In this document: positions 3,909 through 45,396 of the stretch, piece after piece
Numbering within the stretch: position 1 is the stretch's first letter
How the letters are laid out: the number at the start of each line of letters is the position of its first letter
DNA from: Pseudomonadota bacterium
Lineage (GTDB): Bacteria; Pseudomonadota; Gammaproteobacteria; Burkholderiales; Sulfuricellaceae
Assembly (NCBI GenBank): GCA_021792335.1
Contig: JAJYUW010000005.1
Coordinates: 1 to 45,396, forward strand
Length of the DNA stretch: 45,396 nucleotides
Direction: 5' to 3'
Program-made: the position numbers and the translations under genes
Notes under the pieces: model-generated
Database searches by the model: none
What the model was told of the DNA's origin: nothing
What the model saw: only the letters and a program-made list of their open reading frames with translations

Positions 3909-3965
3909 CTCACCTATAAGATAAATAGGTGCAAGCTTAGCCCGAATATTGGCTGACTACAAGCG

Positions 3966-10163: not shown

Positions 10164-10399
10164 GGGGGACTTGCTCCAAATTAAGAGAGAATTGATGGAA
10201 ATGGGATGTTACTAACGGTTCTGTTTATTGTTGCGCTATAACAGCGGCTATGTCAGCCAGAAAGCTGGGGGCGAAATTTATATTTCAAACTGTATCCTAA
10301 ACAAAATAAACAGGCAAGGGAAGCACGCTGAATTACGCCCGGTCGCTCATTCAGGATAAAATCCCCTTGTCACCGTATTTCCCCCGCCCACTTAAACTT

Positions 10400-21315: not shown

Positions 21316-21585
21316 CTATGGAGGTGTTGCTTCCCGCTGAGGTAACTTCTGCGGCGTCGGCTTTGATGCGTCCCTTTTCTTGAATCCCCGATCTCCAGCC
21401 ATGAACGCATCCAGCATGTGCGGAATCAACGCCACCGCATCCACTGTTTCGCCGTAGGCCTGGGCGTGCAGCGCCGCATAGTGGTCGAGGTCGGCCTTCA
21501 AGCTGGCCGGGCAAGCAAAGGTCAGCTTGACGCTTTCAGTCTTTGGGAGCGGACCGAGGCGAAGTTTTGCGGTGGATGCGCTCAT
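21316..21585 (-). CDS. DUF2274 domain-containing protein
   Basis: 89-aa protein, usually the last gene of ICE-type trb operons. It begins MSASTAKLRLGPLPKTESVKLTFACPASLKADLDHYAALHAQAYGETVDAVALIPHMLDAFMAGDRGFKK, the conserved core of the family. The layout, a short beta-strand followed by two helices, recalls ribbon-helix-helix proteins, but the function is unknown. Its ATG overlaps the trbI stop codon (ATGA), so it is translated with trbI. The C-terminal 20 residues are polar and probably disordered. Confidence 0.85.
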   Translation of the reverse strand: MSASTAKLRLGPLPKTESVKLTFACPASLKADLDHYAALHAQAYGETVDAVALIPHMLDAFMAGDRGFKKRDASKPTPQKLPQREATPP

Positions 21586-22892: not shown

Positions 22893-22894
22893 GG

Positions 22895-24609: not shown

Positions 24610-24621
24610 GAGATGTTCTCC

Positions 24622-26013: not shown

Positions 26014-26022
26014 GACGCCCCC

Positions 26023-26751: not shown

Positions 26752-29198
26752 GATGCGTACTCCTGTGGGGTGGATGAATAGGACGGAAATGACGGAACAA
26801 GGTCGGCAGCCCAGTCGAGGCCGCGATGGCGCAGCCAGGCGGCTGCGAAGTCGGAAGACGATGCCGAACGGGAAACCGCATCGCGTACTTCGTCTATTGC
26901 GCGCTGGTCCTGCGGCGTCGAGGCGCCGGCAAAGGCCAGCGTGACCGGCCCCAGGTCCAGGTCGAACAAGCGATTGCCCAGCCGCGACTGGTAGTAGTAG
27001 TCGCGCTTGGGAACCGCCTCGGCCACGATGTCGATCTGGCGGCGGTTCAAACCGAAGCCTTCGTAGATCACCCTGATCTGCGGTTCGGTCGCCTGCGGGT
27101 TGGGCAAGAAGATGCGGCTCGCGCAGCTCTCGATGATCGCGGGCGCGATGGCAGAATCCTTGATGTCGGCCAGTGACTGCGTGGCGAAGATGACGCTGAC
27201 GTTCTTCTTGCGCAGCGTCTTGAGCCACTGGCGGATGCGTGCGGCAAACACCGGGTCGTCGAGGAACAACCAGGCTTCGTCCAATATGAGCAAGGTCGGC
27301 GCACCGTCGAACCGTTCATCGAAGCGCGCGAACAGATAGCCCAGTACCGCCAGCACTGCCGCCTTGCTGTGCATCAGTTCTTCCATCTCGAAGCACTGCA
27401 CGGAACCCGAGCCCAGGCGATCCGAGTCCGCGTCCAGCAGCTTGCCGTGGGCGCCGCCGAGCACGTAAGGTTGCAAGGCCTGGCGCAGCGCGTTGGATTG
27501 CAGAAGTACCGACAGCCCGGTCAAGGTGCGCTGCTCCACCGGCGCACCTGCAAGACTCCCCAGCGCCGACCAGATGGCGGCCTTTTCTTCCGGTCCGACG
27601 GTCACGCCTTCATGCAGCAACCGACCTTCCAGCCACTCGGACGCCCAGGTGCGGTAGCCCTCCTGGTCGATGCGGGCCAGCGGCTGAAAAGCAATCTCGC
27701 CGTCCATGCCCAGGTCGTAGTGTTCGCCCCCAAGTCCCAGGATGGTGGCGCGCATCGAGCGCCCCATGTCGAAGGCAAAGATGCACGAGCCGGGATAGCG
27801 GCGGAACTGCATCGCCAAGGTGGCCAGCAGCACCGACTTGCCCATGCCGATGGGACCGACCACCAGCGTGTTGCCCACGTCGCCAATGTGCGTCACCAGC
27901 CGGAACGGCGTGGCGCCATCGGTGCGCGTCACGATCAACGGCGGCCCATCGAGATGCGCATTGCGCTCCTGCCCGGCCCACACCGCCGATACTGGCATCA
28001 GGTGCGCCAGGTTCAGCGTCGAGATGATGGGCTGACGCACGTTGGCGTAGGCATTGCCCGGAATCGAGGACAACCAGGCGTCCACGGCATTGAGCGTTTC
28101 CGGGATCGTGACAAAGCCGCGGCCCTGGATGACACGTTCAATCCGACGCAGCTTTTCATCGGCAACCGAAGGATCGGAGTCGAGCACCGTCACCGTGGCC
28201 GTGACATAGCCGAAGGCCACTTGATCGCTGCCCAGTTCCTGCAGGGCCGCATCGGCATCCGCTGCCTTGTTCGAAGCGTCGGTATCGACCAGCGGACTTT
28301 CCTGCTGGAAGATGGTTTCGCGCAGCAGCGCCACCACGTTCTTGCGTTTGGCGAACCACTGGCGGCGCAGGCGCGTAAGTTCCTTTTCTGCTTCTGATTT
28401 GTCCATGCAGAGAAAGCGCGTGGACCAGCGGTAGGCGAAGCCCAGGCGGTTCAAGTCGTCCAGTAATCCCGGCCAGGTCGAGGTAGGAAAACCGCGCACC
28501 GATGCCACGCGCAAGTGCTGGTCACCCAGCATGGGTGCCAAACCTCCAACCAAGGCAGAATCGGCCAGCAAGGCATCGAGATAGAACGGATGCTCCGGCA
28601 CAGCCACTCGATAACGCCGCGTCGAAACGGTCGCATGCAAGTAGGTCAGCGTCTGGCTGTCGTCCAGCCAGGCTATCTCCGGCATGACGCCATCGAGCAG
28701 GTCAAAGAAGCGATCCGTCTCCGAGACGAACGACTCCAGCCGTTCGCGCCAGTCCACGCCGCCCTGCGGCGTGTTCTCGTACAACAGCTTGGCGGCGCGA
28801 GCACGGGATTCCTCGGCAGGCAGGTACGCCAGCGTCAGGTGGTAGCTGCTCTCGAAATGGCTATGGTCTTCCTCAAACGAGGCCCGGCGTTCTTCGTCCA
28901 CCAGCCAGGACAGCGGCTCGGGAAACTTCGACTGCGGATAGTCGGCAGCCGTGCGCCTCTCGGCTTCCACGAACAAGGCCCAGCCCGATCCCAGTCGGCG
29001 CAGCGCGTTGTTCAAACGCGCCGACGTGGCGATCAGTTCGCCTTGCGTGGCGCTGTCCAGGTCCGGCCCGCGAAAGCGGGCCGTGCGCTCGAAGGAACCG
29101 TCCTTGTTAAGCACGAGGCCCGGTGCAACCAACCCGGCCCAGGGCAACCAGTCGGCCAGTAGCGCAGGCCGCTTGCGGTATTCAGCGAGATTCTTCAT
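26748..29198 (-). CDS. trbE: Conjugal transfer ATPase TrbE (VirB4 family)
   Basis: Cytoplasmic/inner-membrane ATPase energising pilus assembly and transfer. It has about 816 aa from the ATG at 29198 (MKNLAEYRKRPALLADWLPWAGLVAPG, the normal TrbE N-terminus). The CagE/VirB4 N-terminal domain is followed by the P-loop GNTLVVGPIGMGKSVLLATL. The Walker B region APTLLILDEAWLFLDDP comes next, then KNVSVIFATQSLADI. The gene is full length, but an IS1111-type insertion ends immediately upstream of the ATG. The GAGGAG ribosome site still present beyond the IS probably belonged to this gene. No Shine-Dalgarno is visible in the new upstream sequence, so translation is likely reduced. Confidence 0.94.
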   Translation of the reverse strand: MKNLAEYRKRPALLADWLPWAGLVAPGLVLNKDGSFERTARFRGPDLDSATQGELIATSARLNNALRRLGSGWALFVEAERRTAADYPQSKFPEPLSWLVDEERRASFEEDHSHFESSYHLTLAYLPAEESRARAAKLLYENTPQGGVDWRERLESFVSETDRFFDLLDGVMPEIAWLDDSQTLTYLHATVSTRRYRVAVPEHPFYLDALLADSALVGGLAPMLGDQHLRVASVRGFPTSTWPGLLDDLNRLGFAYRWSTRFLCMDKSEAEKELTRLRRQWFAKRKNVVALLRETIFQQESPLVDTDASNKAADADAALQELGSDQVAFGYVTATVTVLDSDPSVADEKLRRIERVIQGRGFVTIPETLNAVDAWLSSIPGNAYANVRQPIISTLNLAHLMPVSAVWAGQERNAHLDGPPLIVTRTDGATPFRLVTHIGDVGNTLVVGPIGMGKSVLLATLAMQFRRYPGSCIFAFDMGRSMRATILGLGGEHYDLGMDGEIAFQPLARIDQEGYRTWASEWLEGRLLHEGVTVGPEEKAAIWSALGSLAGAPVEQRTLTGLSVLLQSNALRQALQPYVLGGAHGKLLDADSDRLGSGSVQCFEMEELMHSKAAVLAVLGYLFARFDERFDGAPTLLILDEAWLFLDDPVFAARIRQWLKTLRKKNVSVIFATQSLADIKDSAIAPAIIESCASRIFLPNPQATEPQIRVIYEGFGLNRRQIDIVAEAVPKRDYYYQSRLGNRLFDLDLGPVTLAFAGASTPQDQRAIDEVRDAVSRSASSSDFAAAWLRHRGLDWAADLVPSFPSYSSTPQEYAS

Positions 29199-29224
29199 GG
29201 CATGTTTATATGGACGCCTCCCGT

Positions 29225-29486
29225 TTGCCAAGGACGATGTGGGTGTGTTGGGACAGATAGGCTGCAGTTTTATATCCGGCCTGTGGTGCAGGCGGATGCC
29301 TGCTGGCCCTGATGGAATCCGCTGACCCGCGCCTCATTTCTCCAAAGGACTCGGAGTCCTTCACGCCATACAGGCTTGGCGGGTCACGGTCTGACCTGTT
29401 TGCCATCACACTTTTATCGACCTTGCGCAACCTTTATGGCGACCACTCCTTTCATCAAAGTGGTTGATACAACGTTGTGTGCCGTC
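29225..29486 (-). ncRNA. Candidate guide (seek/bridge) RNA region of the IS1111-type element
   Basis: The non-coding 3' side of IS1111-group recombinase genes encodes the guide RNA. Here it contains a perfect AAGGACT-CGG-AGTCCTT hairpin (29345-29361). The hairpin is nested within an outer stem made by TGACCCGC (29323-29330) and GGCGGGTCA (29378-29386). Exact RNA ends and guide bases cannot be defined from one sequence. Confidence 0.4.
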
Positions 29487-30512
29487 CTACGCGGGCCGAC
29501 TCACAAACCCTTTTTGGTACGTCCGTTCATGGGCGAGTAGCGCCCAGATCGTGCGCGCCATCTTGTTGGCCAGCGCCACCACCGCCACATTCAGCGGCCG
29601 GCGTCGGCGCAGTTCCGTGATCCACGGTTCCGGTTCCTTGGCGTGCGTCAGCACCGACCGCGCGCCGTGGATCAGCAGCGTGCGCAGGTAAGTGTCTCCG
29701 CGCTTGCTGATGCCCAAGAGCCGTATTCGTCCGCCGGTGCCGGTTTGTCGAGGAACCAGGCCCAGCCAGGCAGCGAACTCGCGTCCGGACCTGAAGGCCT
29801 TGGCATTGCCCATCGTGGCGACCACCGCCGTCGCAGTCAGCAGACCCACGCCGGGAATATCCACGATGCGCTGACAGGCTCGATCCTCCTTCTGCCAGAC
29901 CTTCAGCCTGCGCTCGATCTCGCCGATCTGCTCGTCGAGCTTGCCGATGCGTTCCCATTGCTCGCGCAGGGTGTCGATCACCATCGCCGGCAGCCGGTCC
30001 GAAAGCCGCCGTAGTGCTTCGGCGATACCTTTCCCGACGCCGGCCTTGCCCTGCGGCATGACCTCGCCATACTCAGCCAGAAGCCCGCGCAGGCCGTTGA
30101 TCTGGGCCGTCCGAAACTTCACCAACTGCTGGCGCATGCGGTGCAGGGCCAGGATGGCTTGCTGTTCCTCGGTCTTGACGGCGACCGCCTTGACGTTGGG
30201 CTGTTGCACCGCCGTCCAGATGGCGCGGGCGTCATGCGCGTCGCTCTTGTTGCCGCCGACGAAGGGCCGCACCGCCTTGGCCGGCATCAGCTTGACCCGG
30301 TGACCCATCGCCATGAGTTCCCTCGCCCAGTGCTGTGCGCCACCGCAGGCTTCCATGCCGATCCAGCACGGCGCCCGGTTGGCGAAATGTTCGAGAAACT
30401 TCTCGCGCTTGAGCTGCAGACTCACGATTTCTCCGCTCTCCATGTCGATCCAGTGCAACTGAAACACCCTTTTGGCGATATCCACGCCGACCACTGGTTT
30501 GCTATCCTTCAT
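29487..30512 (-). CDS. IS110-family transposase (IS1111 group, DEDD recombinase)
   Basis: 341-aa recombinase with an N-terminal RuvC-like DEDD domain: VVGVDIAKRVFQL (Asp), WIGMEACGGAQHWAREL (Glu) and GGNKSDAHDARAIW (two Asp). A helical middle section follows. The C-terminal Tnp_20 domain is IVDIPGVGLLTATAVVATMGNAKAFRSGREFAAWLGLVPRQTGTGGRIRLLGISKRGDTYLRTLLIHGARSVL, with the conserved Ser in the GISKRGD region. The frame is intact, so the element may be active. It inserted into the trb operon in the same orientation, so read-through from the trb promoter or its own transcript could still reach trbE. The 190 bp between the right repeat and the ATG hold its promoter. Confidence 0.95.
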   Translation of the reverse strand: MKDSKPVVGVDIAKRVFQLHWIDMESGEIVSLQLKREKFLEHFANRAPCWIGMEACGGAQHWARELMAMGHRVKLMPAKAVRPFVGGNKSDAHDARAIWTAVQQPNVKAVAVKTEEQQAILALHRMRQQLVKFRTAQINGLRGLLAEYGEVMPQGKAGVGKGIAEALRRLSDRLPAMVIDTLREQWERIGKLDEQIGEIERRLKVWQKEDRACQRIVDIPGVGLLTATAVVATMGNAKAFRSGREFAAWLGLVPRQTGTGGRIRLLGISKRGDTYLRTLLIHGARSVLTHAKEPEPWITELRRRRPLNVAVVALANKMARTIWALLAHERTYQKGFVSRPA

Positions 30513-30735
30513 GTCGGACCCTCCGGTTTGCCTGTGAAGATCTTCGTATCTTCCACCTTGGGCACTTCGATGCCGTCGGCCCGTGAGGGTCCACCTCTCA
30601 ACTCGTTACCACCGCAGAGTTATCCACGGCACCGGGCGCCGACGGTCCCTCTATCACCAGAAGCGACCGGCGCGGTGGGTAACTCGGGTTCAGCGCTCAC
30701 GGGGTGGGAGGCGTCCATTTCATTTCTCCTCGGTC

Positions 30736-31020
30736 TCACACATCCAGCAGCGGGCGGTGTTTGATGTGCCGGGCGAACACGGCCATGAACTGCGGATCAA
30801 GCCGCGCACCCCAGACCGCCAGCGAATGGCCAACGATCCACAGCACCAGACCGGGAATCCACAATTGCAGGCCCAGCCCGACGGCGGCAGCCAGCGTGCC
30901 GTTGGCGATCGCCACGGTGCGCGGCGCGCCGCCCAGCAGGATCGGTTCGGTCAGCGAGCGATGCAGCGGAATCTCGAAACCACTGGCGAAGCCCGCAGCG
31001 AACTCATTGGTGGCATTCAT
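30736..31020 (-). CDS. trbD: Conjugal transfer protein TrbD (VirB3 family)
   Basis: 94-aa inner-membrane protein of the mating channel. FEIPLHRSLTEPILLGGAPRTVAIANGTLAAAVGLGL is the strongly conserved TrbD N-terminal part, followed by a second hydrophobic stretch (LWIPGLVLWIVGHSLAVW) and RLDPQFMAVFARHIKHRPLLDV. The start overlaps the trbC stop (ATGA). The gene appears complete. The IS begins about 12 bp after its stop codon, in what was the trbD-trbE junction. Confidence 0.94.
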   Translation of the reverse strand: MNATNEFAAGFASGFEIPLHRSLTEPILLGGAPRTVAIANGTLAAAVGLGLQLWIPGLVLWIVGHSLAVWGARLDPQFMAVFARHIKHRPLLDV

Positions 31021-31385
31021 GCGACCACCGCCCCGCCCGAGAACGAGAAGAACGACAGGAAGAACGAGGAAGCGGCGAACGCGATCGAGAGTCCGAACAC
31101 GATCTGGATCAGCTTGCGAAAGCCGCCCGAGGTATCGCCGAAGGCCAGGGCCAGGCCGGTGGAAATGATGATGATCACCGCGACGATCCGGGCCACCGGC
31201 CCCTGGATCGATTCAAGAATGGATTGCAGCGGCCCTTCCCAGGGCATGCTGGAGCCGGCGGCGTGAGCCGTCGTCGCCAGGCACAGCATCAGTGCGGCGA
31301 GCACGACAACGTGCAAGGCCAGCCGCAGTTGCGGATTTACGGAGAAACGGGAAGTCGAAAAAGTGGTGTGCACGCTGTACGTCAT
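31017..31385 (-). CDS. trbC: Conjugal transfer prepilin TrbC (VirB2 family)
   Basis: Pilin subunit precursor of 122 aa from the ATG at 31385, which overlaps the trbB stop. The track start at 31679 lies within trbB in another frame. A long basic signal region (up to LMLCLATTAHA) precedes the mature, hydrophobic peptide GSSMPWEGPLQSILESIQGPVARIVAVIIIISTGLALAFGDTSGGFRKLIQIVFGLSIAFAASSFFLSFF, which has two membrane helices. This is the typical TrbC/VirB2 layout. Confidence 0.94.
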   Translation of the reverse strand: MTYSVHTTFSTSRFSVNPQLRLALHVVVLAALMLCLATTAHAAGSSMPWEGPLQSILESIQGPVARIVAVIIIISTGLALAFGDTSGGFRKLIQIVFGLSIAFAASSFFLSFFSFSGGAVVA

Positions 31386-32431
31386 GGCAGTTCTCCAGGG
31401 GTGGTTGAGGACGGGAGGAAAAGAATCGGAAGCGGCGGCGCGAGCGCGTCGTCGAGCTGGTAGCCGTGACCATCGAAACCGACGATGCGAGCGATGGTCT
31501 GAACATGGCGGGCGCGACCGCGCCCGGCGATGAAGACGACGACATTCACCGCCTCGGCGATCAGCGCACGCGGCGGTGTCAAAGCGACTTCGAGGATCAG
31601 TTGTTCCAGGCGCAGCAGCGCACCGTGGGCGGAACTGGAGTGAATCGTGGCAATACCGCCGGGGTGGCCGGTGCCCCAAACCTTGATGAGGTCCAGCGCT
31701 TCGCCGCCGCGCACCTCGCCGACGATCACGCGATCAGGGCGCAGCCGCATCGTGGCCCGCACCAGCTCGGCCATCGACACCACGTTAGCCCGCGTGCGCA
31801 GCGATACGTGGTCGCGGGCGGCACACTGAAGCTCCACGGTGTCTTCGAGCACCAGCACCCGATCACCGGTGGCGGCGATCTCGGCCAACAAGGCGTTGGC
31901 CAGCGTGGTTTTACCCGTGCTGGTGCCCCCAGCAATCAGGATGTTCTGCCGCTCGCGCACCGCGCGGCGCAGGAACTCGGCTTGTTCTTCGGTCAGAATG
32001 CCGTCCGCGACATAGCGCTCCAGACCGATGATGCTCACGGCGCGCTTGCGTAGGGCAAAGGCCGGCCCCGGCGCAGCCGGTGGCAGGATGCCTTCGAAGC
32101 GCTCCCCCGTTTCCGGCAGCTCGGCGGTCAGCAGCGGCTGGCCGTGATGCACCTCGGTGCCGACATGAGCAGCGACCAGCCGGATGATGCGTTCGCCATC
32201 GGCCTCGGACAGTTTGACGCCTGTCGGCGAGCGGCCCGACGACAAGCGATCAATCCACAAGGAGCCGTCCGGGTTGAGCATGATCTCCACCACGTCCTGG
32301 TCTTCCAGCGCGGCGGCGATCAGCGGCCCCATCGCTGTGCGCAGCATGCGGATACGCCGGTCCAGCGATGTGGCGGCGGATGATGGCGGCGCGGGCTGCA
32401 ACTTAGGAGGCAACTTCGGGACGGCGATCAT
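31382..32431 (-). CDS. trbB: P-type conjugative transfer ATPase TrbB (VirB11 family)
   Basis: Hexameric secretion ATPase of 349 aa. The N-terminal domain contains VVEIMLNPDGSLWIDRL. The ATPase core has Walker A NILIAGGTSTGKTTLANALLAEI, the Asp box VLVLEDTVELQC, Walker B-type VIVGEVRGGEALDLIKVWGTGHPGGIATIHSSSA (the His box) and the conserved C-terminal VVVFIAGRG. The start overlaps the copG-like stop (ATGA). Confidence 0.95.
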   Translation of the reverse strand: MIAVPKLPPKLQPAPPSSAATSLDRRIRMLRTAMGPLIAAALEDQDVVEIMLNPDGSLWIDRLSSGRSPTGVKLSEADGERIIRLVAAHVGTEVHHGQPLLTAELPETGERFEGILPPAAPGPAFALRKRAVSIIGLERYVADGILTEEQAEFLRRAVRERQNILIAGGTSTGKTTLANALLAEIAATGDRVLVLEDTVELQCAARDHVSLRTRANVVSMAELVRATMRLRPDRVIVGEVRGGEALDLIKVWGTGHPGGIATIHSSSAHGALLRLEQLILEVALTPPRALIAEAVNVVVFIAGRGRARHVQTIARIVGFDGHGYQLDDALAPPLPILFLPSSTTPGELP

Positions 32432-32880
32432 GCTCCGTCCTCCTGCATTGCTGCTTCTGCCAGCCGCGCAGCATCAGGCTGGATTTCCTCGTAGACCTCC
32501 TTGACCAGGCTGCGCCCGCGCAGCAGATGCCGGCCGAGTTGTTCGATGAACTGCTCGAAGCGTGCCTTGCCTTGGGCTTTCGCGGCTTCCTGATGGGCCT
32601 CCGGCACGGGCGTGCTGACCGTCAGGTAGTAGCGCACGTACAGCGCCAGCGTCTCGATCAGGATGTTCTGGTCGCGCTCCAGACGCTCGAACTGGCGCGA
32701 CAGCCGGTCCAACCGTTTGGCGGTGGCCGCTTCGCGCTGGTCGCCCGCATCCGGCGACAGCCAGGACGCCAGCGCCGCTGCGACGATGGATGACTTGGAC
32801 ACGCCTTTCTTGGCGGCCAGTTCGTCCAGGCGCTTGGCATGGTCGGGTTGGATGAAGAGGTTCAGGCGGGCTTGGCTCAT
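32428..32880 (-). CDS. CopG-like ribbon-helix-helix protein of the trb operon
   Basis: 150-aa protein. The N-terminal segment ARLNLFIQPDHAKRLDELAAKKGVSKSSIVAAALASWL is a ribbon-helix-helix DNA-binding fold. A charged helical and probably coiled-coil section (RLDRLSRQFERLERDQNILIETLALYVRYYLTVS) and a further C-terminal helix follow. It lies between traG and trbB with 4-bp ATGA overlaps on both sides, its constant position in Tn4371-like modules. It probably regulates the operon or helps DNA processing; neither can be shown here. Confidence 0.88.
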   Translation of the reverse strand: MSQARLNLFIQPDHAKRLDELAAKKGVSKSSIVAAALASWLSPDAGDQREAATAKRLDRLSRQFERLERDQNILIETLALYVRYYLTVSTPVPEAHQEAAKAQGKARFEQFIEQLGRHLLRGRSLVKEVYEEIQPDAARLAEAAMQEDGA

Positions 32881-34889
32881 AGCTGGATTCCGTCGTCAGG
32901 GTCAAGGGCTGCCAGCCGCGTCGTGCGCTGCAAGCGCGGCGAAATCGAATCAGGCTGGAATGGGAGGGATGCCGAAAGAGGCAAAGGGAAATCGTCGTCA
33001 TCGAGCAGCGACAGGTCGCTGGCCGACTGCTCGGGTTCGGGGCTGTAGGTGGCAACCTCGGACAGCTCCGGCTGCTGGCGCGGGCCGCCGTCATCAGCCG
33101 ATTCACCCAGCCCAGCCGTGGCGGACGTGGCTGGCACGGCGGGGATGGCCAGGGCGCTCCAGTCGTCGGCGCGGGTGGCAGGCACGTCGGCGTAGTGCCC
33201 CGGAGTCAAGGTGGGCGGCGGCAGTACGCGCCGCTTGAAGTTGGCGTCAAGGTAATAACGCAACTTCTTGGCCTTGATCGGCGCTTGGCCGGAGACCATC
33301 ACCACCGATTCATCAGGTGGCAGTTGCATGACTTCACCGGGCGTCAACAGTGGCCGCGCCGTTTCCTGGCGCGACACCATCAGGTGGCCCAGCCACGGTG
33401 CCAGACGATGGCCGGCGTAGTTGCGCTGCGCGCGCAGTTCGGTGGCGGTGCCCAGCGTCTCGGAGATGCGCTTGGCCGTGCGTTCGTCGTTGGTGGCGAA
33501 GGTCACGCGCACATGGCAGTTGTCCAGAATCGAATGGTTCTGGCCGTAGGCCTTGTCGATCTGGTTGAGCGACTGCGAAATCAGGAAGGCGCGCAGGCCG
33601 TAGCCGGCCATGAAGGCCAAGGCCGACTCGAAGAAGTCGAGACGTCCGAGCGCCGGAAACTCGTCGAGCATCAGCAGCAGCTTGTGTTTGCGTTCGATGC
33701 CATCGGAGCCATCCAGCGACTCGGTGAGGCGCCGGCCAATCTGGTTGAGGATCAGACGGATCAGCGGTTTGGTGCGGCTGATGTCCGAAGGCGGCACCAC
33801 CAGGTACAACGACACCGGATGTTCGGCAGAGATCAGGTCGGCGATACGCCAGTCGCAGCGCGAGGTCACTTCGGCCACCGTGGGATCGCGGTACAGCCCC
33901 AGAAAACTCATGGCCGTGGACAGCACGCCCGAGCGCTCGTTGTCCGACTTGTTGAGCACTTCGCGTGCGGCCGATGCAACGACAGGATGCGGTGTTTCGC
34001 CCAGGTGGCGCGTGCTCATCATCCGATGCAGCGTCACCTCGAACGGGCACGCCGGATCGGACAGAAAGTTGGCGACACCGCGCAGCGTCTTGTCTTCACC
34101 GGCATAAAGCACATGCAGGATCGCCCCGACCAGCAGCGCGTGACTGGTCTTCTCCCAATGGTTGCGCCGCTCCAGCGCACCTTCGGGATCGACCAGGATG
34201 TCAGCGATGTTCTGCACGTCGCGCACTTCATGCGCGCCGCGTCGGACTTCCAGCAGTGGGTTGTACGCGGCCGACTTCGGATCAGTCGGGTTGAACAGCA
34301 GGCAGTGCGAGAAGCGCGAGCGCCAGCCAGCGGTGATGTTCCAGTTCTCACCCTTGATGTCGTGGATGACTGCGGACGCTGGCCATGACAACAGTGTCGG
34401 CACCACCAGACCCACGCCTTTGCCCGAACGCGTAGGTGCGAAGGTCAGGACGTGTTCCGGCCCTTCGTGGCGCAAATACTGACGGTCATGCAGGCCGAGG
34501 AAGACACCGGCCGGGCCGGTCAGCCCGGCCTTGCGGATTTCCTCGGTATCGGCCCAGCGTGCGGAGCCGTAGGTCGTGACCAGCTTGGACTGCCGCGAGC
34601 GCCATATCGACATGCCGATGGCGACCACCACGGCGACCATGCCGCTGACACCGGCGATGGCGCCGCCCGTGTTGAAGATATGCGGCGCATAGGCATCAAA
34701 GAAGAACCACCACTCGAACAGACGCCAAGGGTGGTAGACTGGTGTACCGAAGAAGTCGAACCAGGGAGTGCCAAGGCGTAGCTGATAACCCAGGGCGGCG
34801 GCGGTCCATTGTGTGGCACCCCACACGCCGGCTATGACGATGCCAAACACCGTCAGTACCTGACCGAACAGCACACTGGTCCCTTGCAT
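32877..34889 (-). CDS. traG: Conjugal transfer coupling protein TraG (VirD4 family)
   Basis: Inner-membrane ATPase that couples the relaxosome to the secretion channel, 670 aa. The start at 34889 (MQGTSVLFGQVLTVFGIVIAG) is chosen for its GGAGG ribosome site; the track start adds 12 unlikely residues. Two N-terminal membrane helices are followed by Walker A HVLTFAPTRSGKGVGLVVPTLLSWPASAVIHDIKGEN, Walker B HKLLLMLDEFPALGRLDFFESALAFMAGYGLRAFLISQSLNQI, and a C-terminal polar tail. It heads the long trb operon, 285 bp downstream of the EexN-like gene. TTGACA occurs in that gap, but no matching -10 was found. Confidence 0.95.
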   Translation of the reverse strand: MQGTSVLFGQVLTVFGIVIAGVWGATQWTAAALGYQLRLGTPWFDFFGTPVYHPWRLFEWWFFFDAYAPHIFNTGGAIAGVSGMVAVVVAIGMSIWRSRQSKLVTTYGSARWADTEEIRKAGLTGPAGVFLGLHDRQYLRHEGPEHVLTFAPTRSGKGVGLVVPTLLSWPASAVIHDIKGENWNITAGWRSRFSHCLLFNPTDPKSAAYNPLLEVRRGAHEVRDVQNIADILVDPEGALERRNHWEKTSHALLVGAILHVLYAGEDKTLRGVANFLSDPACPFEVTLHRMMSTRHLGETPHPVVASAAREVLNKSDNERSGVLSTAMSFLGLYRDPTVAEVTSRCDWRIADLISAEHPVSLYLVVPPSDISRTKPLIRLILNQIGRRLTESLDGSDGIERKHKLLLMLDEFPALGRLDFFESALAFMAGYGLRAFLISQSLNQIDKAYGQNHSILDNCHVRVTFATNDERTAKRISETLGTATELRAQRNYAGHRLAPWLGHLMVSRQETARPLLTPGEVMQLPPDESVVMVSGQAPIKAKKLRYYLDANFKRRVLPPPTLTPGHYADVPATRADDWSALAIPAVPATSATAGLGESADDGGPRQQPELSEVATYSPEPEQSASDLSLLDDDDFPLPLSASLPFQPDSISPRLQRTTRLAALDPDDGIQL

Positions 34890-35174
34890 TCTGACCTCCG
34901 AATTTTTCCTGCACATCACGCGCACAAATACGTGCCGCAGACGTGAGGTTCGGTGTCAACTCAGTGCCGGTCAAAGACCGTTATCGGCACAATCCAGGGA
35001 GAAAAAGAAAGATTTCCAGCAGGGGCGTAGACGAGAAAAACGCCGCAAGCGGATGCGCGTTGCGGCGTGTATGGCGATTTGTTGAAAGATTTTTTGCCGA
35101 TATGAAGAATCGGCACGTACAGGGCCATGCGACGGGTATTGACCAGCCGCAGTATCGCTATCTGCGCGAGGCGA
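34890..35174. other. Leader between eexN-like gene and traG
   Basis: It contains the intrinsic terminator at 35035-35070 and then the upstream region of traG. No gene was found. TTGACA lies at about 34956-34961 on the minus strand without a good -10 partner. Confidence 0.4.
35035..35070 (-). terminator. Intrinsic terminator after the EexN-like gene
   Basis: On the minus strand ACGCCGCAA...TTGCGGCGT forms a 9-bp stem with a 10-nt loop, followed by TTTTTCTC. It separates the lysR-eexN unit from the traG-trb operon. Confidence 0.8.
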
Positions 35175-36535: not shown

Positions 36536-36850
36536 TCAGGCAGAAGCGCTTGCCTGATCCTCATAGGCCAACAGACGCAAGGCATTGATCACTACGACCA
36601 CCGTCGACCCTTCGTGGATGAGCACCGCCACACCGATCCCCGCCCAGCCGAACAAAGTGGCGGGAATCAGCAGCGCCACCACGCCGAGCGACACCCGCAG
36701 ATTCTGCCGGATGATGCGCCGCGATGCGCGGCTCAAGGCCACGGCAAAGGGCAGCTTCCCGAGATCGTCGGCCATCAGCGCCACGCCGGTGCACGCCGCC
36801 CCTCGGGTAATGCCAAGGATTGCTTGCGCCTTCGCCAGAGTCGGCAACAG
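36536..36850 (-). pseudogene. Truncated C-terminus of a heavy-metal P-type ATPase
   Basis: The frame ending at 36536 reads ...VALMADDLGKLPFAVALSRASRRIIRQNLRVSLGVVALLIPATLFGWAGIGVAVLIHEGSTVVVVINALRLLAYED. This is nearly identical in its last about 80 residues to the intact ATPase at 39717-42053. The upstream part keeps only a blurred match to GDGVNDAPAMARATVGIAMGG and lacks the ETADVAL segment, the phosphorylation domain and most membrane helices. It has no start of its own; the open frame at 36905 enters it out of frame. It is probably the scar of a recombination between two related ATPase genes. Confidence 0.8.
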
Positions 36851-36905
36851 CAATCTCCATGAATTGGGGATGAGCCTCAACAAACTTCAAAATAACGTCT
36901 GTCAT
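36851..36905 (-). pseudogene. Orphan 5' coding fragment coupled to the FlgB-like gene
   Basis: ATG at 36905 overlaps the FlgB-like stop codon (ATGA) and opens MTDVILKFVEAHPQFMEIAV..., a sensible N-terminus. After about 18-28 codons the frame runs out of register through the ATPase remnant. It may be the beginning of an unknown gene cut off by the recombination that left the remnant. Confidence 0.4.
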
Positions 36906-37519
36906 GTCAGGTTCCTCAGCAACGCCAGCATGTCCTTGAATTCCCCGCTCACCCGATCCATGGCGAACTGGTACATCAATGCGTTCTCGGTGAATTTGGC
37001 CCTCTCCACATCCATTTCAACGGTATTGCCATCGATGCTGGCCTGTTGGGGAACGTGATATTTCAGAGGGATACTGGAATATTGTGCCGGCGCCGGAGTG
37101 GATAGGTGCCCTGCGGCGGTCGCCGACAATTTCACGGCGCCCCCTTGCATCGTCGTCCGTGCAAGACGCAATGCCGCCTGAAAATCTATATCGACCGCCT
37201 TGTAGCCGGGCGTATCCGCATTGGCGATATTCGATGCCAGGAGCTGCTGGCGATAGGCGCGCAGCCCTAGCGCAACCTCATGGATATCTTCGCCGCCCTC
37301 TTTTTGCTGCTGGCCCGCTAAGGGAATGTGCCTGGACCCGTTGGCCGGCGACGAGGAATTGGCTGCTGTGGCCGCCTCTCGGGAAAGCGATGCATTGGCT
37401 AACGCAAGCCTATAAGAGGCAGAGAACGCCTGCGCTGTTCCCTGGCCGGAATAATCATTGCTGGCAACCCCGGTAAGGCCGCCAGGGGTTACGCTGCCAA
37501 TTCCTTTTATCTGACTCAT
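36902..37519 (-). CDS. Orphan FlgB-like flagellar rod protein with long N-terminal extension
   Basis: 205 aa. From about residue 75 it is clearly FlgB-like: VALGLRAYRQQLLASNIANADTPGYKAVDIDFQAALRLA is the rod-protein N-terminal motif, and PLKYHVPQQASIDGNTVEMDVERAKFTENALMYQFAMDRVSGEFKDMLALL is the FlgB C-terminal signature. Ordinary FlgB is about 135 aa. The extra 70-75 residues (MSQIKGIGSVTPGGLTGVASNDYSGQG...) are low-complexity, Ser/Ala/Gly-rich. No other flagellar gene is in the window. The gene sits at the distal end of the metal-resistance array, 61 bp after a SHOCT gene. It could be a stray cargo gene, a remnant, or a specialised rod protein. The GAG ribosome site and start at 37519 are plausible. 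Confidence 0.8.
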   Translation of the reverse strand: MSQIKGIGSVTPGGLTGVASNDYSGQGTAQAFSASYRLALANASLSREAATAANSSSPANGSRHIPLAGQQQKEGGEDIHEVALGLRAYRQQLLASNIANADTPGYKAVDIDFQAALRLARTTMQGGAVKLSATAAGHLSTPAPAQYSSIPLKYHVPQQASIDGNTVEMDVERAKFTENALMYQFAMDRVSGEFKDMLALLRNLT

Positions 37520-37580: not shown

Positions 37581-37832
37581 CTAGCCCCGCTTCAGATCGT
37601 CGCGCTTCTGCAAGTACTCCTCGCGACCGATTTCTCCCCGAGCATATCGTTCTTCCAGGACGGACAGCGCGTCGGGCTTTTTCTCACCATCCGTGGCGTT
37701 CGAGCGGCGACCACCCATCAGGTACTTCACTACGGCCAGCACCAGCAGTATCGGAATCAGCCAGAAAAACGCCATGCCCAGCCAGCCCAGCCAATGCCAG
37801 CCCATGCCGTAGCCTTCATAATCCATCCACAT
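37581..37832 (-). CDS. Small membrane protein with SHOCT domain
   Basis: 83 aa. An aromatic, Gly/Trp-rich N-terminus (MWMDYEGYGMGWHWLGWLGM) precedes one membrane helix (AFFWLIPILLVLAVVKYLMGG). A C-terminal SHOCT motif follows: DALSVLEERYARGEIGREEYLQKRDDLKRG. SHOCT domains are short oligomerisation-type helical hairpins common at protein ends. It lies downstream of copy 1 of the unknown membrane-anchored protein. The second copy also has a SHOCT-containing neighbour, so the association looks functional. Confidence 0.85.
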   Translation of the reverse strand: MWMDYEGYGMGWHWLGWLGMAFFWLIPILLVLAVVKYLMGGRRSNATDGEKKPDALSVLEERYARGEIGREEYLQKRDDLKRG

Positions 37833-37898: not shown

Positions 37899-38494
37899 CG
37901 GCGTCTCTTCTGTCTGAATGTTTTTCCAGCACCTGCCGTCATGTCGGCAGTTTACAATTCCCGGACTTCCACCTCGGTCATCTCCGTGCCGAGTCGCGCC
38001 GTTTTCACAAGCTTAAGCGCAATGCGACGGTTTCCCTTGGCGTAGACATGGGTCTCTTCCGTGGGGGAGGCGGCAGTTACTTCTTTGGTGAATCCCCGCG
38101 TCGCCATCTCGCGGGCGTAAAACGCGATGACCTCGGCGAAGCTGGCCTTGCCTTTATAGGCCACACGTCGTTTTTGCTCCTGGACACTGAAGGCGACTCG
38201 CATCATGCCGGGAAAACGCGGGACGCCCGCGATGTCTTCTCCGCCCACATCCTGCCTGGGCAGGGCCGCGCCCGGCGCCCACTCTTCGACCTTTTGCCCC
38301 AGCTCGGGCGGCACGAGCGCCTTAACTCGCTCCTTGAGTCCGGGCAACATCTCCTCGGCCTTTTGCACGGGCTGCGCGGCGATTTGTTTGCCACCGGCGA
38401 GCCACTGGGGCAACCTGTCCGTGACAAGACCTACGCCGGCGATAACCCCCCAGACGAGGAGCACCAGTAAAATCACCAAGCCCAGACCGCCGAT
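37899..38494. repeat. Copy 1 of a duplicated segment of about 600 bp
   Basis: From GCGTCTCTTCTG at 37901 through most of the coding region, this sequence closely matches 44076-44672. The match includes the non-coding tail TTTTTCCAGCACCTGCCGTCATG. Similarity ends at about codon 9 of each gene. Confidence 0.85.
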
Positions 38495-38518
38495 CCAGAA
38501 CCATCTGCTCATACCCAC
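37952..38518 (-). CDS. Membrane-anchored protein of unknown function, copy 1
   Basis: 188 aa, not recognised. One N-terminal membrane helix (FWIGGLGLVILLVLLVWGVIAGVGLVTDRL) is followed by a Lys/Glu/Pro-rich helical linker (AAQPVQKAEEMLPGLKERVKALVPPELGQKVEEWAPGAALPRQD). A compact alpha/beta domain of about 95 residues completes it (VPRFPGMMRVAFSVQEQKRRVAYKGKASFAEVIAFYAREMATRGFTKEV...YAKGNRRIALKLVKTARLGTEMTEVEVREL). The pattern VxxFYxxEMxxxGF followed by strands resembles small periplasmic domains that pair a predicted lipoprotein fold with a trans-envelope role, but no family is claimed. A paralogue (44130-44696) differs at about 24 of 188 positions, mostly in the first 10. It starts 3 bp after the frameshifted zf-TFIIB gene. 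Confidence 0.8.
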   Translation of the reverse strand: MGMSRWFWIGGLGLVILLVLLVWGVIAGVGLVTDRLPQWLAGGKQIAAQPVQKAEEMLPGLKERVKALVPPELGQKVEEWAPGAALPRQDVGGEDIAGVPRFPGMMRVAFSVQEQKRRVAYKGKASFAEVIAFYAREMATRGFTKEVTAASPTEETHVYAKGNRRIALKLVKTARLGTEMTEVEVREL

Positions 38519-38521
38519 CCC

Positions 38522-38772
38522 TCAGTCGAACAAATCGCGCAGGAAGGACTTGCGCGGCTTACCCCGGTACTCGTCATCGCGGTAGTGGCGCTCTTGCCGC
38601 TCGGGGTAATCGCCGCGCGGCCGGTCGCCGGCCTGACGCTCCGCATGCTCGATGAACTTGTCCAACTCACCCCGGTCCAGCCACACGCCGCGACATTCGG
38701 GGCAGTAGTCGATCTCGATTCCCTGACGCTCAGTCATCACCGATTCACTTCTTTGCATACTGGGCATTTCAT
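38522..38772 (-). pseudogene. zf-TFIIB domain protein, frameshifted after the first zinc knuckle
   Basis: The natural start is the ATG at 38772: it has AGGAG 8 bp upstream and overlaps the preceding stop as ATGA. It reads MKCPVCKEVNR and then meets TGA TGA. The rest of the domain, VMTERQGIEIDYCPECRGVWLDRGELDKFIEHAERQ, lies in the next frame, which the track opens at another ATG (38767) as MPSMQRSES. Together they form the usual CPxC...CPxCxGxWLDRGEL zinc ribbon, so one base is missing or two are extra near 38737-38742. The C-terminal tail is Arg/Asp-rich (DRPRGDYPERQERHYRDDEYRGKPRKSFLRDLFD). It may be a real mutation, a sequencing error or programmed slippage. Confidence 0.82.
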
Positions 38773-39005
38773 AATTTATCTCCTGTTGTCAGCAAGATTT
38801 TGATCTGTCCCTCCATCAGGCCATCCACGGGGATGACGCGCGTCTCATCAATGATCAGCACGGGACAATGACGAATCTGGAAACGCTCCACGAGTTCCGG
38901 GTGCTCTTCAGCGTAGCAGTACTCGTAAACGAGCCCCAGGTCCCGCAATTCCTGCTCGATGTTGCTGCAGTGGCAGGTCCGGGTGGTAAGCAGCTTGATG
39001 TCCAT
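38769..39005 (-). CDS. Small thioredoxin/glutaredoxin-fold protein
   Basis: 78 aa from the ATG at 39005 (MDIKLLTTRTCHCSNIEQELRDLGLVYEYCYAEEHPELVERFQIRHCPVLIIDETRVIPVDGLMEGQIKILL), preceded by GGAGG. The beta-alpha-beta layout with a cis-Pro segment (RHCPVLIIDE) is thioredoxin-like. The active-site loop is T-C-H-C-S rather than C-x-x-C, so it may bind metal or use a different thiol pair. It lies between a DUF302 gene (13-bp gap) and the zf-TFIIB gene (4-bp overlap), within the metal-resistance operon. Redox repair under metal stress is the likely role (inferred). Confidence 0.75.
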   Translation of the reverse strand: MDIKLLTTRTCHCSNIEQELRDLGLVYEYCYAEEHPELVERFQIRHCPVLIIDETRVIPVDGLMEGQIKILLTTGDKL

Positions 39006-39019
39006 GGCGACCTCCACCG

Positions 39020-39628
39020 TTAATGGCCGCAACACATGCATTTGCCATGCATCTCGCCACCCATCGAGCGCATGGTCTCGCGCATTTGCTGCATGTGTTC
39101 CCGCATAAGCCGCTGCTGTTCCTGGGGATTCTGGGCCTGATGGATCTTTTCCATGCTCGCTTGTATCTGCTGCGTATCCACCTTCACCTTTGCCATGGTC
39201 TCGTCGGCTTGCGCGCTGGGTGCTTCTTCAGACCCGCCTAGCGCGACGGACACCTGCTCTAGCCGTTGTCTGACCTCGCTCGCCAACGCCGTGATCTCGG
39301 GCTTGTTCACCAGTTCCAGTACCGCATTCGGGTCCATGAATTCCACATGAACCGTGCCAGCCCCATCCTGCCGCACCACCACGTTGCAGGGCAGGAGCAA
39401 ACCGATGGACGGTTCGCTTTCCAGGGCGCGGTGCGCCAAAGGTGGATTGCACGCGCCCAGTATTCGATAGGGCGGCATGTCCTGGTTGAGCTTCTTCTTC
39501 AGAGTGGCCGCCACGTCGATGTCCGTGAGCACGCCGAAGCCTTCCTTTTGCAGTTCCTGGGTCACCTTCTCGATGGCCGTATCGAAAGAAGACGCTACTG
39601 TTTTGCCGAAACCGTACTGGGTGTTCAT
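39020..39628 (-). CDS. DUF302 domain-containing protein with Met/Cys/His-rich C-terminus
   Basis: 202 aa from the ATG at 39628 (MNTQYGFGKTVASSFDTAIEKVTQELQKEGFGVLTDIDVAATLKKKLNQDMPPYRILGACNPPLAHRALESEPSIGLLLPCNVVV), with AGGAG upstream. This first part is a typical DUF302 domain, including GACNPP and LLPCN. An extra helical region (QADETMAKVKVDTQQIQASMEKIHQAQNPQEQQRLMREHMQQMRETMRSMGGEM) and the tail HGKCMCCGH follow. The Met/His/Cys content suggests metal binding. No signal peptide is visible. It lies 88 bp downstream of the P-type ATPase in the same direction. Confidence 0.85.
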   Translation of the reverse strand: MNTQYGFGKTVASSFDTAIEKVTQELQKEGFGVLTDIDVAATLKKKLNQDMPPYRILGACNPPLAHRALESEPSIGLLLPCNVVVRQDGAGTVHVEFMDPNAVLELVNKPEITALASEVRQRLEQVSVALGGSEEAPSAQADETMAKVKVDTQQIQASMEKIHQAQNPQEQQRLMREHMQQMRETMRSMGGEMHGKCMCCGH

Positions 39629-39716
39629 GTTATTGCTCCTTCGTTGAGTATGAATATAAATATGGGCCAAGATTTTTACGTTCTGGGCATGCGCGCGCTC
39701 GTTTAGCTGAGAGTGC

Positions 39717-42053
39717 TCATAAAGCGCTTGGCTGGTCCTCGTAGGCTAACAGACGTAACGCATTGATGACCACGACCACGGTCGAGCCCTCGTGGATCAG
39801 CACCGCAAGTCCGATCCCCGCCCAGCCGAACAGGGTGGCGGGAACCAGCAAGGCCACCACGCCCAGGGACACCCACAGGTTCTGTCGAATAATGCGCTTC
39901 GATGCGCGGCTCAAGGCCACGGCGAACGGCAGTCTGGAAAGATCGTCGCCCATCAGCGCGACATCGGCGGTTTCCAGCGCCACATCGGTGCCGGCGCCAC
40001 CCATGGCGATGCCGACGGTGGCGCGCGCCATCGCCGGCGCGTCGTTGACGCCGTCACCGACCATCGCGACCTGGCCGTAGCGCTGCGCAAGTTCCTCCAT
40101 AGCTTTGACCTTGTCTTCCGGCAACAGGCCGGCCTTCACTTCGTCGAGGCCGACCGCGTCGGCGATGGCGCGGCCCACGCGCTCGTTGTCGCCGGTAAGC
40201 ATGATGGTCTTGCGGATGCCGGTCTGGTGCAGACGTTCCAGCACCTGCTTCACGTCCTCGCGCGGCGTGTCGGCCAGGGCCACCATGCCCAGAAACTGTC
40301 CGTCCATCCGGATCAGCATGAGGGTCTTGCCTTCCGCCTGCAGGCGCGCCGCCTGTTGCTGAACCGCGTCGGGAATGGTTTCGCCTTCAAAAAGTTTGCC
40401 GTTGCCGATGGCGATTTTCTTTCCATCGAACTCGGCGCGCACGCCTTTGCCGGTGACGGCTTCGACCTCGCCTGCTTCGCTCCAGGTTAAACCGCGCCGC
40501 TTCGCTTCCGTCACCACCGCCTGCGCGAGCGGATGGCCGCTGCGGCTTTCCACGGCGGCGGCCACGGTCAGCAGACGCGTCTCGTCGCCGCTGACGGCGA
40601 CAACGTCGGTCACTTCCGGCTTGCCGATAGTCAGGGTGCCGGTCTTGTCGAAGGCGATGGCCGTGAGCACGCCCAGATTCTCCAGATGCGCGCCGCCTTT
40701 GATCAGCACGCCGCCGCGCGCGGCGCGCGCGATGCCGGACAGCACCGCCGAAGGCGTGGCGATGGCGAGCGCGCAGGGGGAGGCTGCCACCAGCACGGCC
40801 ATCGCGCGGTAAAAGGATTCCGCAAAAGGAAAACCGAACAGCGGCGGCAGCACGATGAGCAGTACGGCGCCCACCAGCACGACGGGTACGAAGATGCGCT
40901 CGAAGCGATCGGTGAAGCGCTGGGTGGGAGACTTCTGCGTCTGCGCCTCGGCCACCATCGTAACCATGCGCGCCAGCGTGCTCTCCTGCGCCAGCTTGGT
41001 TACCTCGATCGTCAGCACGCCTTCGCCGTTGACCGTGCCGGCGAACACCTTGTCGCCCGGCTGCTTGTCCACCGGCATGGATTCGCCGGTGATGGGCGCC
41101 TGGTCCACCGCCGAGTTGCCTGATGCCACCTGCCCGTCGGCGGGGATGCGCTGACCGGGTTTGACCACCACCCGGTCGCCGCGCTGCAAGGCTTCGACCC
41201 GCACCTCGATCTCGGCACCATCGCGCTGCACGATGGCGGTCCTGGGCGCCAGTTCCGCCAGCGCCTCGATCGCCTTGCGCGCCCGGTCCATGGCCATGTG
41301 TTCCAGCGCATGACCGAGGCTGAACAGGAATAGCAGCAGCGCGCCTTCTTCCCAGGCACCCAAAGCCGCGGCCCCGGCCGCTGCGACGATCATCAGGGTG
41401 TCGATGTCGAAGCTGCGGCTCTTCACACTCTGCCAGGCGTCGCGCAGGGTATAGAAACCGCCCGCCGCGTAGGCGCCCAGCAGCAGCCCGAGCGAGAGGG
41501 CGTGCGGGGCGCCGGCGAGGCCGGCCAGCCAGCCCGCCAGCAGCAGCAAGCCAGCAACGCCGCTCAAAATAAGCTCGCGATGCTCGGCGAACCATCCGGC
41601 CTCGCGGCCTTCCTCCAGCACGGCGTAGCCGAGCGCCTGGATGCGCCGGACAATCGTCGGGCGCGCAATTTTCTCGCCGTCGTATTCCAGGCGCAGGCGC
41701 TCGGCGGCGTAACTCACCGAGGCTTCCAGCACACCGTCCATGCGCGTCAGCGCGTGCTCGATCACGGTGGCGCAGATGGGACAGTCCATGCCGTCGATGC
41801 GCAGACTCTCGTGGCGATAGCGACTGCCGATCTTCGCGCCGGCCGCCTGCGCCAGCTCGCGCACCCGACTCACGCTGAATTGCCGCGGGTCGTAGTGCAG
41901 GCACAGGCGGGCGCCGCCGTCCTCGCGCACCAGGTGGACCTTTTCCAGGCCTTCGGCCTGCAGCAGTTTGGTCAGACGCTCTACGCAGGCGTCGCGCTCG
42001 TCGGGGATTTCCGGCAAGACCAGGGACAAGTCCAGTTCAAGTTTTTCAGCCAT
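39717..42053 (-). CDS. Heavy-metal-translocating P1B-type ATPase
   Basis: Inner-membrane metal efflux pump, 778 aa from the ATG at 42053 (MAEKLELDL, with AAGGAG upstream). The N-terminus holds a degenerate HMA-like domain without CxxC and then a second HMA domain with the metal site GMDCPIC (Cys91/Cys94). Core motifs are TGES (actuator), DKTGTLT (phosphorylation), SGHPLA and GDGVNDAPA. The transmembrane metal site is SPC (VAASPCALAIATPSA) rather than CPC, and the last helices carry HEGST. SPC plus HEGxT are the marks of the P1B-4 group (Co, Zn, Cd or Fe export), although that group usually lacks an HMA domain. The last 80 residues recur in the remnant at 36536. It heads the DUF302/thioredoxin-like group. 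Confidence 0.93.
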   Translation of the reverse strand: MAEKLELDLSLVLPEIPDERDACVERLTKLLQAEGLEKVHLVREDGGARLCLHYDPRQFSVSRVRELAQAAGAKIGSRYRHESLRIDGMDCPICATVIEHALTRMDGVLEASVSYAAERLRLEYDGEKIARPTIVRRIQALGYAVLEEGREAGWFAEHRELILSGVAGLLLLAGWLAGLAGAPHALSLGLLLGAYAAGGFYTLRDAWQSVKSRSFDIDTLMIVAAAGAAALGAWEEGALLLFLFSLGHALEHMAMDRARKAIEALAELAPRTAIVQRDGAEIEVRVEALQRGDRVVVKPGQRIPADGQVASGNSAVDQAPITGESMPVDKQPGDKVFAGTVNGEGVLTIEVTKLAQESTLARMVTMVAEAQTQKSPTQRFTDRFERIFVPVVLVGAVLLIVLPPLFGFPFAESFYRAMAVLVAASPCALAIATPSAVLSGIARAARGGVLIKGGAHLENLGVLTAIAFDKTGTLTIGKPEVTDVVAVSGDETRLLTVAAAVESRSGHPLAQAVVTEAKRRGLTWSEAGEVEAVTGKGVRAEFDGKKIAIGNGKLFEGETIPDAVQQQAARLQAEGKTLMLIRMDGQFLGMVALADTPREDVKQVLERLHQTGIRKTIMLTGDNERVGRAIADAVGLDEVKAGLLPEDKVKAMEELAQRYGQVAMVGDGVNDAPAMARATVGIAMGGAGTDVALETADVALMGDDLSRLPFAVALSRASKRIIRQNLWVSLGVVALLVPATLFGWAGIGLAVLIHEGSTVVVVINALRLLAYEDQPSAL

Positions 42054-42140
42054 GCTGTTGCTCCTTATAGAAACCATCGATTTCGGCGCGGGGTTTCGCT
42101 CCTCATGGAACGGACAAAGACCTGCGCTTGGCAGGTGCCC

Positions 42141-44075: not shown

Positions 44076-44672
44076 CGGCGTCTCTTCTGCCTTATGTTTT
44101 TCCAGCACCTGCCGTCATGGGCAGGCGGTTTACAATTCCCGGATTTCCACCTCGGTCATCTCCGTGCCGAGCCGCAACGTTTTCACGAACTTCAGTGCGA
44201 AGCGACGGTTTCCCTTGGCGTAGACATGGGTCTCTTCAGCGAGGGAAGCGGCGGTCACTTCTTTGGTGAATCCCAGCGTCGCCATCTCGCGGGCGTAGAA
44301 CGCGATGACCTCGGCGAAACCGGCCGCGCCCTTATAGGCCACGCGTCGTTTTTGCTCCTGAATACTGAAGGCGACTCGCACCATGCCGGGAAAGCGCGGG
44401 AGGCCCGCGATGTCCTCGCCGCCCACGTCCTGCCTGGGCAGGGCCGCGCCCGGCGCCCACTCCTCGATCTTTTGCCCCAGCTCTGGCGGCACGAGCGCCT
44501 TAACTCGCTCCTTGAGTCCGGGCAACATCTCTTCGGCCTTTTGTATGGGCTGCGCGGCGATTTGCTTGCCGCCGGCGAGCCACTGAGGCAGCCTGTCCGT
44601 GACGAGGCCAAAGCCGGCGATAACCCCCCAGACGAGGAGGGCCAGTAAAATCACCAAACCCAGGGCGCCGAT
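44076..44672. repeat. Copy 2 of the duplicated segment of about 600 bp
   Basis: It matches 37899-38494 across the coding region and the shared downstream tail beginning at the GGCGTCTCTTCTG motif. The flanking genes differ, so the segment moved or was duplicated as a unit. Confidence 0.85.
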
Positions 44673-44696
44673 GATGAGACCGTATTTGCTGTTCAT
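44130..44696 (-). CDS. Membrane-anchored protein of unknown function, copy 2
   Basis: 188-aa paralogue of the gene at 37952-38518, about 87% identical by eye. It has the same layout: a membrane helix at residues 8-31 (IIGALGLVILLALLVWGVIAGFGL), a helical linker and a C-terminal alpha/beta domain with VIAFYAREMATLGFTKEV. Most substitutions are conservative (V/I, L/F) outside the first 10 residues, so both copies appear to be under selection. The ATG overlaps the stop of the zinc-ribbon/SHOCT gene (ATGA) and has GGAG upstream, which implies coupled synthesis. The function is unknown; a periplasm-facing role beside metal pumps is inferred. Confidence 0.8.
   Translation of the reverse strand: MNSKYGLIIGALGLVILLALLVWGVIAGFGLVTDRLPQWLAGGKQIAAQPIQKAEEMLPGLKERVKALVPPELGQKIEEWAPGAALPRQDVGGEDIAGLPRFPGMVRVAFSIQEQKRRVAYKGAAGFAEVIAFYAREMATLGFTKEVTAASLAEETHVYAKGNRRFALKFVKTLRLGTEMTEVEIREL

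Positions 44697-45154: not shown

Positions 45155-45396
<242 letters not shown>

Follow-up and report, generated by a model that had tools for sequence, protein, structure and literature searches.

We show, by comparison of sequences, that a gene for a FlgB-like protein in a heavy-metal resistance run belongs to a clade of FlgB paralogues that is tied to metal loci, co-occurs with flagella, and carries a conserved export-like motif. Heavy-metal resistance loci of many Betaproteobacteria repeatedly include a structural protein of the flagellar base. The gene was found in the window, which is the whole stretch of 45,396 nucleotides that was analysed. The original prediction had described it as an orphan in metal cargo with an N-terminal extension of 70 residues, and had raised the options of a moonlighting or a secreted paralogue. 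The features of the window that bear on this are the following:

45155..45394 (-), C-terminal end of a CzcA-type RND pump at the edge of the contig, where the visible metal run begins (tblastn, 78% identity to CzcA)
39717..42077 (-), P1B-type heavy-metal ATPase of the Zn/Cd/Pb type (TIGR01525, E 3.6e-194)
39020..39670 (-), DUF302 protein with a Met/Cys-rich tail (Pfam, E 5.9e-29)
38769..39041 (-), thioredoxin/glutaredoxin-like protein of 90 aa (by eye, from a CHC motif; no Pfam match)
38522..38767 (-), Zn_ribbon_TFIIB protein (Pfam, E 8.2e-15)
37952..38518 (-), membrane-anchored protein of 188 aa without a Pfam match (second copy at 44130-44696 (-))
37581..37832 (-), SHOCT-domain membrane protein of 83 aa, directly upstream of the FlgB paralogue (Pfam SHOCT, E 5.6e-8)
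36902..37519 (-), FlgB paralogue with N-terminal extension, 205 aa (TIGR01396, E 9.2e-30)
37292..37519 (-), N-terminal extension, residues 1-76, largely disordered apart from a helix predicted at 29-49 (AlphaFold2)
37412..37426 (-), F32-S-A-S-Y36, of the form F-x3-hydrophobic, resembling the flagellar gate recognition motif (conserved F32; shuffle test)
36905..37291 (-), FlgB rod core, residues 77-205, with two D0-type helices at 77-99 and 169-203 (AlphaFold2 model, Foldseek)
36536..36883 (-), remains of the C-terminus of another P1B ATPase, just downstream of the FlgB gene (TIGR01512, E 2.7e-17 over the last 92 positions)
32877..34925 (-), traG coupling protein of an IncP-type conjugation module beside the metal cargo (NF010450, 1198.6 bits)

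Along the minus strand, the end of czcA is followed by genes for a zinc-ribbon/SHOCT protein and the 188-aa protein, an mgtC-like gene, a zinc-ribbon gene, and a gene for an SBF transporter. After these come the genes for the P1B ATPase, the DUF302 protein, the 90-aa redox-like protein, the Zn_ribbon_TFIIB protein, the second 188-aa protein, the SHOCT protein, and the FlgB paralogue, which is the last gene of the metal-resistance run. Past it lie the ATPase remnant, a LysR gene, and the IncP-type conjugation genes (21582-34925), which encode TrbI, TrbL, TrbE, TrbB/T2SSE, and TraG, as in integrative conjugative elements. The metal run, together with the FlgB paralogue, is mobile cargo. As most of its genes are closely spaced, we infer that the paralogue is co-transcribed with the metal genes. 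The window holds no other flagellar gene, and a flagellar operon cut by the ends of the window is ruled out, with metal genes reaching back to czcA upstream and the ATPase remnant, the LysR gene, and traG downstream. The remnant is 76% identical to the C-terminus of the intact ATPase at 39717-42077, and is likely a trace of recombination between repeated metal modules. The two copies of the uncharacterised 188-aa protein each stand beside a SHOCT/zinc-ribbon gene; the protein is also encoded on contig C26 of the host assembly and at loci L007 and L008.

By profile and by structural model, the window protein is predicted to be a member of the FlgB family with the FlgB fold. TIGR01396 (FlgB) covers residues 78-201 with 103.5 bits against a cut-off of 59.05, which bears out the FlgB-like assignment of the original prediction, and the cut-off of Pfam Flg_bb_rod is passed as well. 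All 41 aligned members match TIGR01396. The nearest PDB sequence is that of Salmonella FlgB (E 1.4e-27). In the AlphaFold2 model (mean pLDDT 62), only the helices at 77-99 and 169-203 are confident, and the top Foldseek matches of this model were flagellar proximal-rod entries (E 9.7e-9, target TM 0.66-0.82). The rod motif, the D0 helices, the DGNTV region, and the fold are common to the paralogue and Salmonella FlgB (PDB 7bin, 7cg0), whereas the paralogue carries about 68 extra N-terminal residues, is encoded outside a flgBCD operon, and falls in a separate clade. A core arginine present in 17 of 17 ordinary FlgB sequences is replaced by histidine in 28 of 40 orphans, among them the window protein (residue 155).

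The 80 relatives nearest to the window paralogue by similarity were taken from genome_contigs, and describe the clade of the query rather than all FlgB proteins; most come from Rhodocyclales and other Betaproteobacteria. Their neighbourhoods were searched with probes for eleven flg genes (flgA, C-J, L, and M) and for flgK. None of the eleven was found near any of the 80, and the flgK probe matched a single gene, at locus L027. Metal-resistance markers were present near 73 of the 80 relatives, and most of the other seven lie on short contigs. Among 20 ordinary flgB loci used as a control, the same probes detected flagellar genes at all 20 and metal markers at none. In a maximum-likelihood tree of the core, one branch (95/94) set off 17 ordinary FlgB sequences, and another (96/90) had 40 metal-associated rows beyond it. 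Two short Cupriavidus copies, which may represent a separate recruitment, were placed in between, and the window paralogue did not group with ordinary FlgB of the same hosts. This tree, together with relatives that carry both a window-type gene and an ordinary flgB, makes it well supported, as judged from sequence, that the window gene is a paralogue rather than the ordinary rod-building FlgB, as had been proposed.

The conserved NIANADTP stretch begins at residue 97 in the window paralogue; in E. coli FlgB it begins near residue 29. The extension thus amounts to some 68 residues, close to the 70 first claimed. A start-site error is ruled out, as the ATG of the open reading frame is preceded by a Shine-Dalgarno sequence (AAGGAG, coding strand) and homologous extensions are found in relatives: more than 45 residues precede the core in 37 of 42 representatives. 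The length of the extension varies across the clade (about 50-100 residues), and its abundant residues are G, S, A, H, P, T, and N. A Pfam scan of clade members revealed no family in common besides Flg_bb_rod. In the window paralogue, pLDDT is below 50 at residues 1-30 and 46-76, and the helix at 29-49 is of low confidence. The start of this helix bears a short likeness to FliE, the rod-base adaptor (F-x3-L-x2-A). A FliE-FlgB fusion, suspected by eye, was rejected after hhalign gave a non-significant result (P 0.14) and family scans yielded no FliE match.

One motif stands out in these otherwise variable extensions: a phenylalanine separated by three residues from a hydrophobic one (in most cases L, I, or Y), which as a rule is located at residue 31-40. 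Of the 37 long members, 36 have this motif in their extensions, whereas 1000 shuffles gave 9.6 on average and 19 at most. In the alignment of the A2 group, F32 is the sole nearly invariant residue of the extension apart from Met1. Early flagellar subunits dock at the export gate by way of a gate recognition motif of this kind (FLTLL, 36-40, in FlgD), and in the rod and hook subunits of Salmonella it is separated from the N-terminus by 30 residues or more (PMC8983047). F32-S-A-S-Y36 lies, by sequence, at such a distance. Early flagellar export signals combine an N-terminal hydrophobic signal with the gate motif, and the window protein similarly has its F-x3-hydrophobic motif after a small hydrophobic start; the motif was defined in Salmonella, while its counterpart here is known from sequence. 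In all 16 ordinary FlgB proteins examined, the core contains a comparable F-x3-[LM] near residue 44. Unlike ordinary FlgB, about half of the orphan representatives have lost this phenylalanine, which relaxes the core export-type motif, and every long-form member among these has the motif in its extension. We read this as a putative export signal that has been kept at the right spacing from the new N-terminus. The presence of an export-gate-like motif makes secretion of the window paralogue, one of the two roles originally raised, plausible.

A membrane-anchored HD-GYP protein (Pfam HD_5, E ~1e-37), predicted to be a c-di-GMP phosphodiesterase, is encoded next to the orphan FlgB gene in about 40 relatives, and in about 22 loci the two genes share a 4-bp stop-start overlap (ATGA). 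Examples of the HD-GYP gene are found in L049 (8393-9700) and L034 (8450-9748), and in many cases copK-like and czcE-like genes come after it, on the opposite strand. Neither in the window nor on contig C26 is there an HD-GYP gene within 5 kb of the FlgB paralogue. Zinc-ribbon genes recur beside plasmid copies of the orphan flgB.

At the level of genomes, fliF was present in 34 of 36 hosts of the orphan, compared with 172 in a set of 246 well-assembled genomes from the order (Fisher p ~0.001, uncorrected for kinship). The bit scores of orphan and ordinary FlgB (about 180 versus 172) differ by a margin too small for a wider survey, and FlgB was therefore counted in fliF-negative genomes instead. 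Among 80 such genomes of the order, 45 of them with CzcA-type pumps, no orphan FlgB was found; the single FlgB match lay within an ordinary flgBCDE stretch. Since the gene occurs together with flagella, a role linked to the flagellum is likelier than an unrelated job, which leaves the suggestion of moonlighting unsupported. As an exception, a short orphan flgB was noted at 3907-4290 of a small linear plasmid record of Klebsiella variicola EMBL-1 (L138), beside cadR, P-type ATPase, and zinc-ribbon genes. Klebsiella is usually non-motile.

Two orphan flgB genes on pMOL30 of Cupriavidus were already known. One is part of the flgB-czcP operon (Rmet_5971) in the czc region of C. metallidurans, where FlgB has been listed among proteins of unknown function (PMC9045368). 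This gene is up-regulated by a metal mix, as is the second flgB, with mmrQ (PMC11647585). The second gene (RMET_RS30460) is located near mmr and a GGDEF-EAL gene. Like the window gene, the pMOL30 orphans are FlgB-like, lack flagellar neighbours, and are found beside czc genes, a P1B ATPase, zinc-ribbon genes, or c-di-GMP genes; unlike it, they are of ordinary length (140 aa), lack the extension, and fall outside the 40-row clade. For the extended clade, its motif, and the HD-GYP pairing, no earlier description was found in the open-access literature, and an earlier account may exist. c-di-GMP enzymes on metal-resistance elements, as in the relatives of the window, also occur in mer transposons, whose Mrp (urf2) is a metal-regulated EAL-type c-di-GMP phosphodiesterase without a FlgB partner. 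In contrast to this EAL enzyme, the neighbours of the orphan flgB are HD-GYP proteins, and these only in the relatives.

The explanation that we favour, although we give it slightly less than an even chance, is that the metal-linked FlgB paralogue joins the export and rod pathway of the flagellum and, under metal stress, modulates how flagella are built. Metals would induce the locus, and the paralogue made would dock at the flagellar type III export gate through the signal in its extension. It would then compete with or replace FlgB at the proximal rod, with the outcome that the number of flagella built is adjusted. A brake or plug, in which a disordered tail, 70-100 residues long, would lie beside the export gate, seems somewhat likelier than a metal-proof substitute for the rod subunit. 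In Salmonella, early flagellar subunits exert a dominant-negative effect on export and motility when they are overexpressed (PMC10936197). The HD-GYP and EAL partners of relatives suggest a link between this adjustment and the control of the motile/sessile switch by c-di-GMP. Put in its fullest form, mobile metal loci might carry a dedicated regulator of the flagellum: a FlgB look-alike with an export signal, made under metal stress, that enters the gate or rod base and switches flagellum building along with c-di-GMP signalling. This we advance tentatively, as a possibility. The recurrence of such copies in metal-resistance loci suggests that the flagellum could be a direct target of metal stress. 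If the paralogue does act on the flagellum, mobile resistance elements would manage the motility of their host as well as its pumps, and the flgB of the well-studied czc region, said in 2022 to be of unknown function, would gain one.

Several observations weigh against this flagellar explanation. The export motif is short, the group of the window lacks the HD-GYP neighbour, and a short orphan flgB is found on a Klebsiella plasmid. HD-GYP neighbours, which would promote motility, fit poorly with a brake. In addition, proteomics of C. metallidurans under metal stress failed to detect the FlgB encoded in the czc region (PMC11647595).

A rather unlikely alternative is that the paralogue replaces FlgB under metal stress as an alternative rod subunit, with flagella still being built, and that cells swim away in step with lowered c-di-GMP. 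The intact rod core and the HD-GYP or GGDEF-EAL neighbours are in line with this, as is the observation that cadmium lowers c-di-GMP and blocks the initiation of biofilms in C. metallidurans (PMC6629876). In the Uliginosibacterium isolate (L027, 7710-10418), moreover, a complete FlgK-like gene follows the orphan within a few bases, with czcRS-like genes near. However, paralogues of FlgC, FlgF, and FlgG do not accompany the orphans, and a tail of 70-100 residues would be hard to accommodate at the base of the rod.

To a similar, low degree we consider a metal-binding helper, which would stay in or around the cell envelope and buffer or hand over metal via a His-rich disordered tail, with the rod core as a mere scaffold. 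Its genes adjoin efflux pumps, and histidine accounts for 5.0% of residues in the extensions, compared with 3.4% in orphan cores and 1.8% in ordinary FlgB. The extensions of several Rhodocyclales members contain 5-9 histidines in HxxH-like runs, and the replacement of the core arginine by histidine fits as well. The extension of the window protein, however, has a single histidine and thus no His-rich tail, and cysteine is absent from all clade extensions examined; His-rich metal binding was accordingly rejected as a general property of the clade, as it is not common to all members. Furthermore, the rod core is conserved to the degree of a working FlgB, and no Sec signal peptide was evident by eye in the window paralogue.

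Less probable still is a functionless hitch-hiker, an old flgB duplicate carried along by metal islands. Its place in mobile cargo, the repeated copies of the module, and the adjacent ATPase remnant would suit such a passenger, but core dN/dS among the closest copies was mostly 0.17-0.31 (one pair 0.62), and 0.23-0.29 in pairs involving the window copy. The conserved motif, the neighbours conserved across many genera, and the translational coupling in relatives likewise argue against it. dN/dS of the extension among the closest copies was mostly 0.45-0.84 (one pair 0.08), which, together with its retention by family members, indicates that the extension is real.

That an ordinary flgB was placed beside metal genes by misassembly, or given a wrong start, is very improbable: the assembly is fragmented and lacks a standard flgB, but the idea is refuted by independent assemblies that repeat the arrangement (L007-L009), a second copy exists in the host, the extensions have homologs, and the clade is separate.

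The host assembly comprises 2.65 Mb in 262 contigs and is 75% complete. The second orphan paralogue, on contig C26, is 84% identical and lies in a second copy of the metal module. As to whether the host has a separate standard flgB, none was found in its assembly, where flgG-flgL are located on contig C82, which breaks off inside flgF; in four other sampled genomes of the genus, the best FlgB match was ordinary in all four, with an extra orphan in one. As these congeners have one FlgB match, or one plus an orphan, the host lineage normally has its own flgB, and that of the host is probably in an assembly gap. At 75% completeness, some chance is left that the host has no standard flgB besides the two orphans (C246, C26). 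Elsewhere in the window, a tandem of a PD-(D/E)XK nuclease and a UvrD helicase, AddB/AddA-like, is encoded at 10367-16574 (+), near a rho gene.
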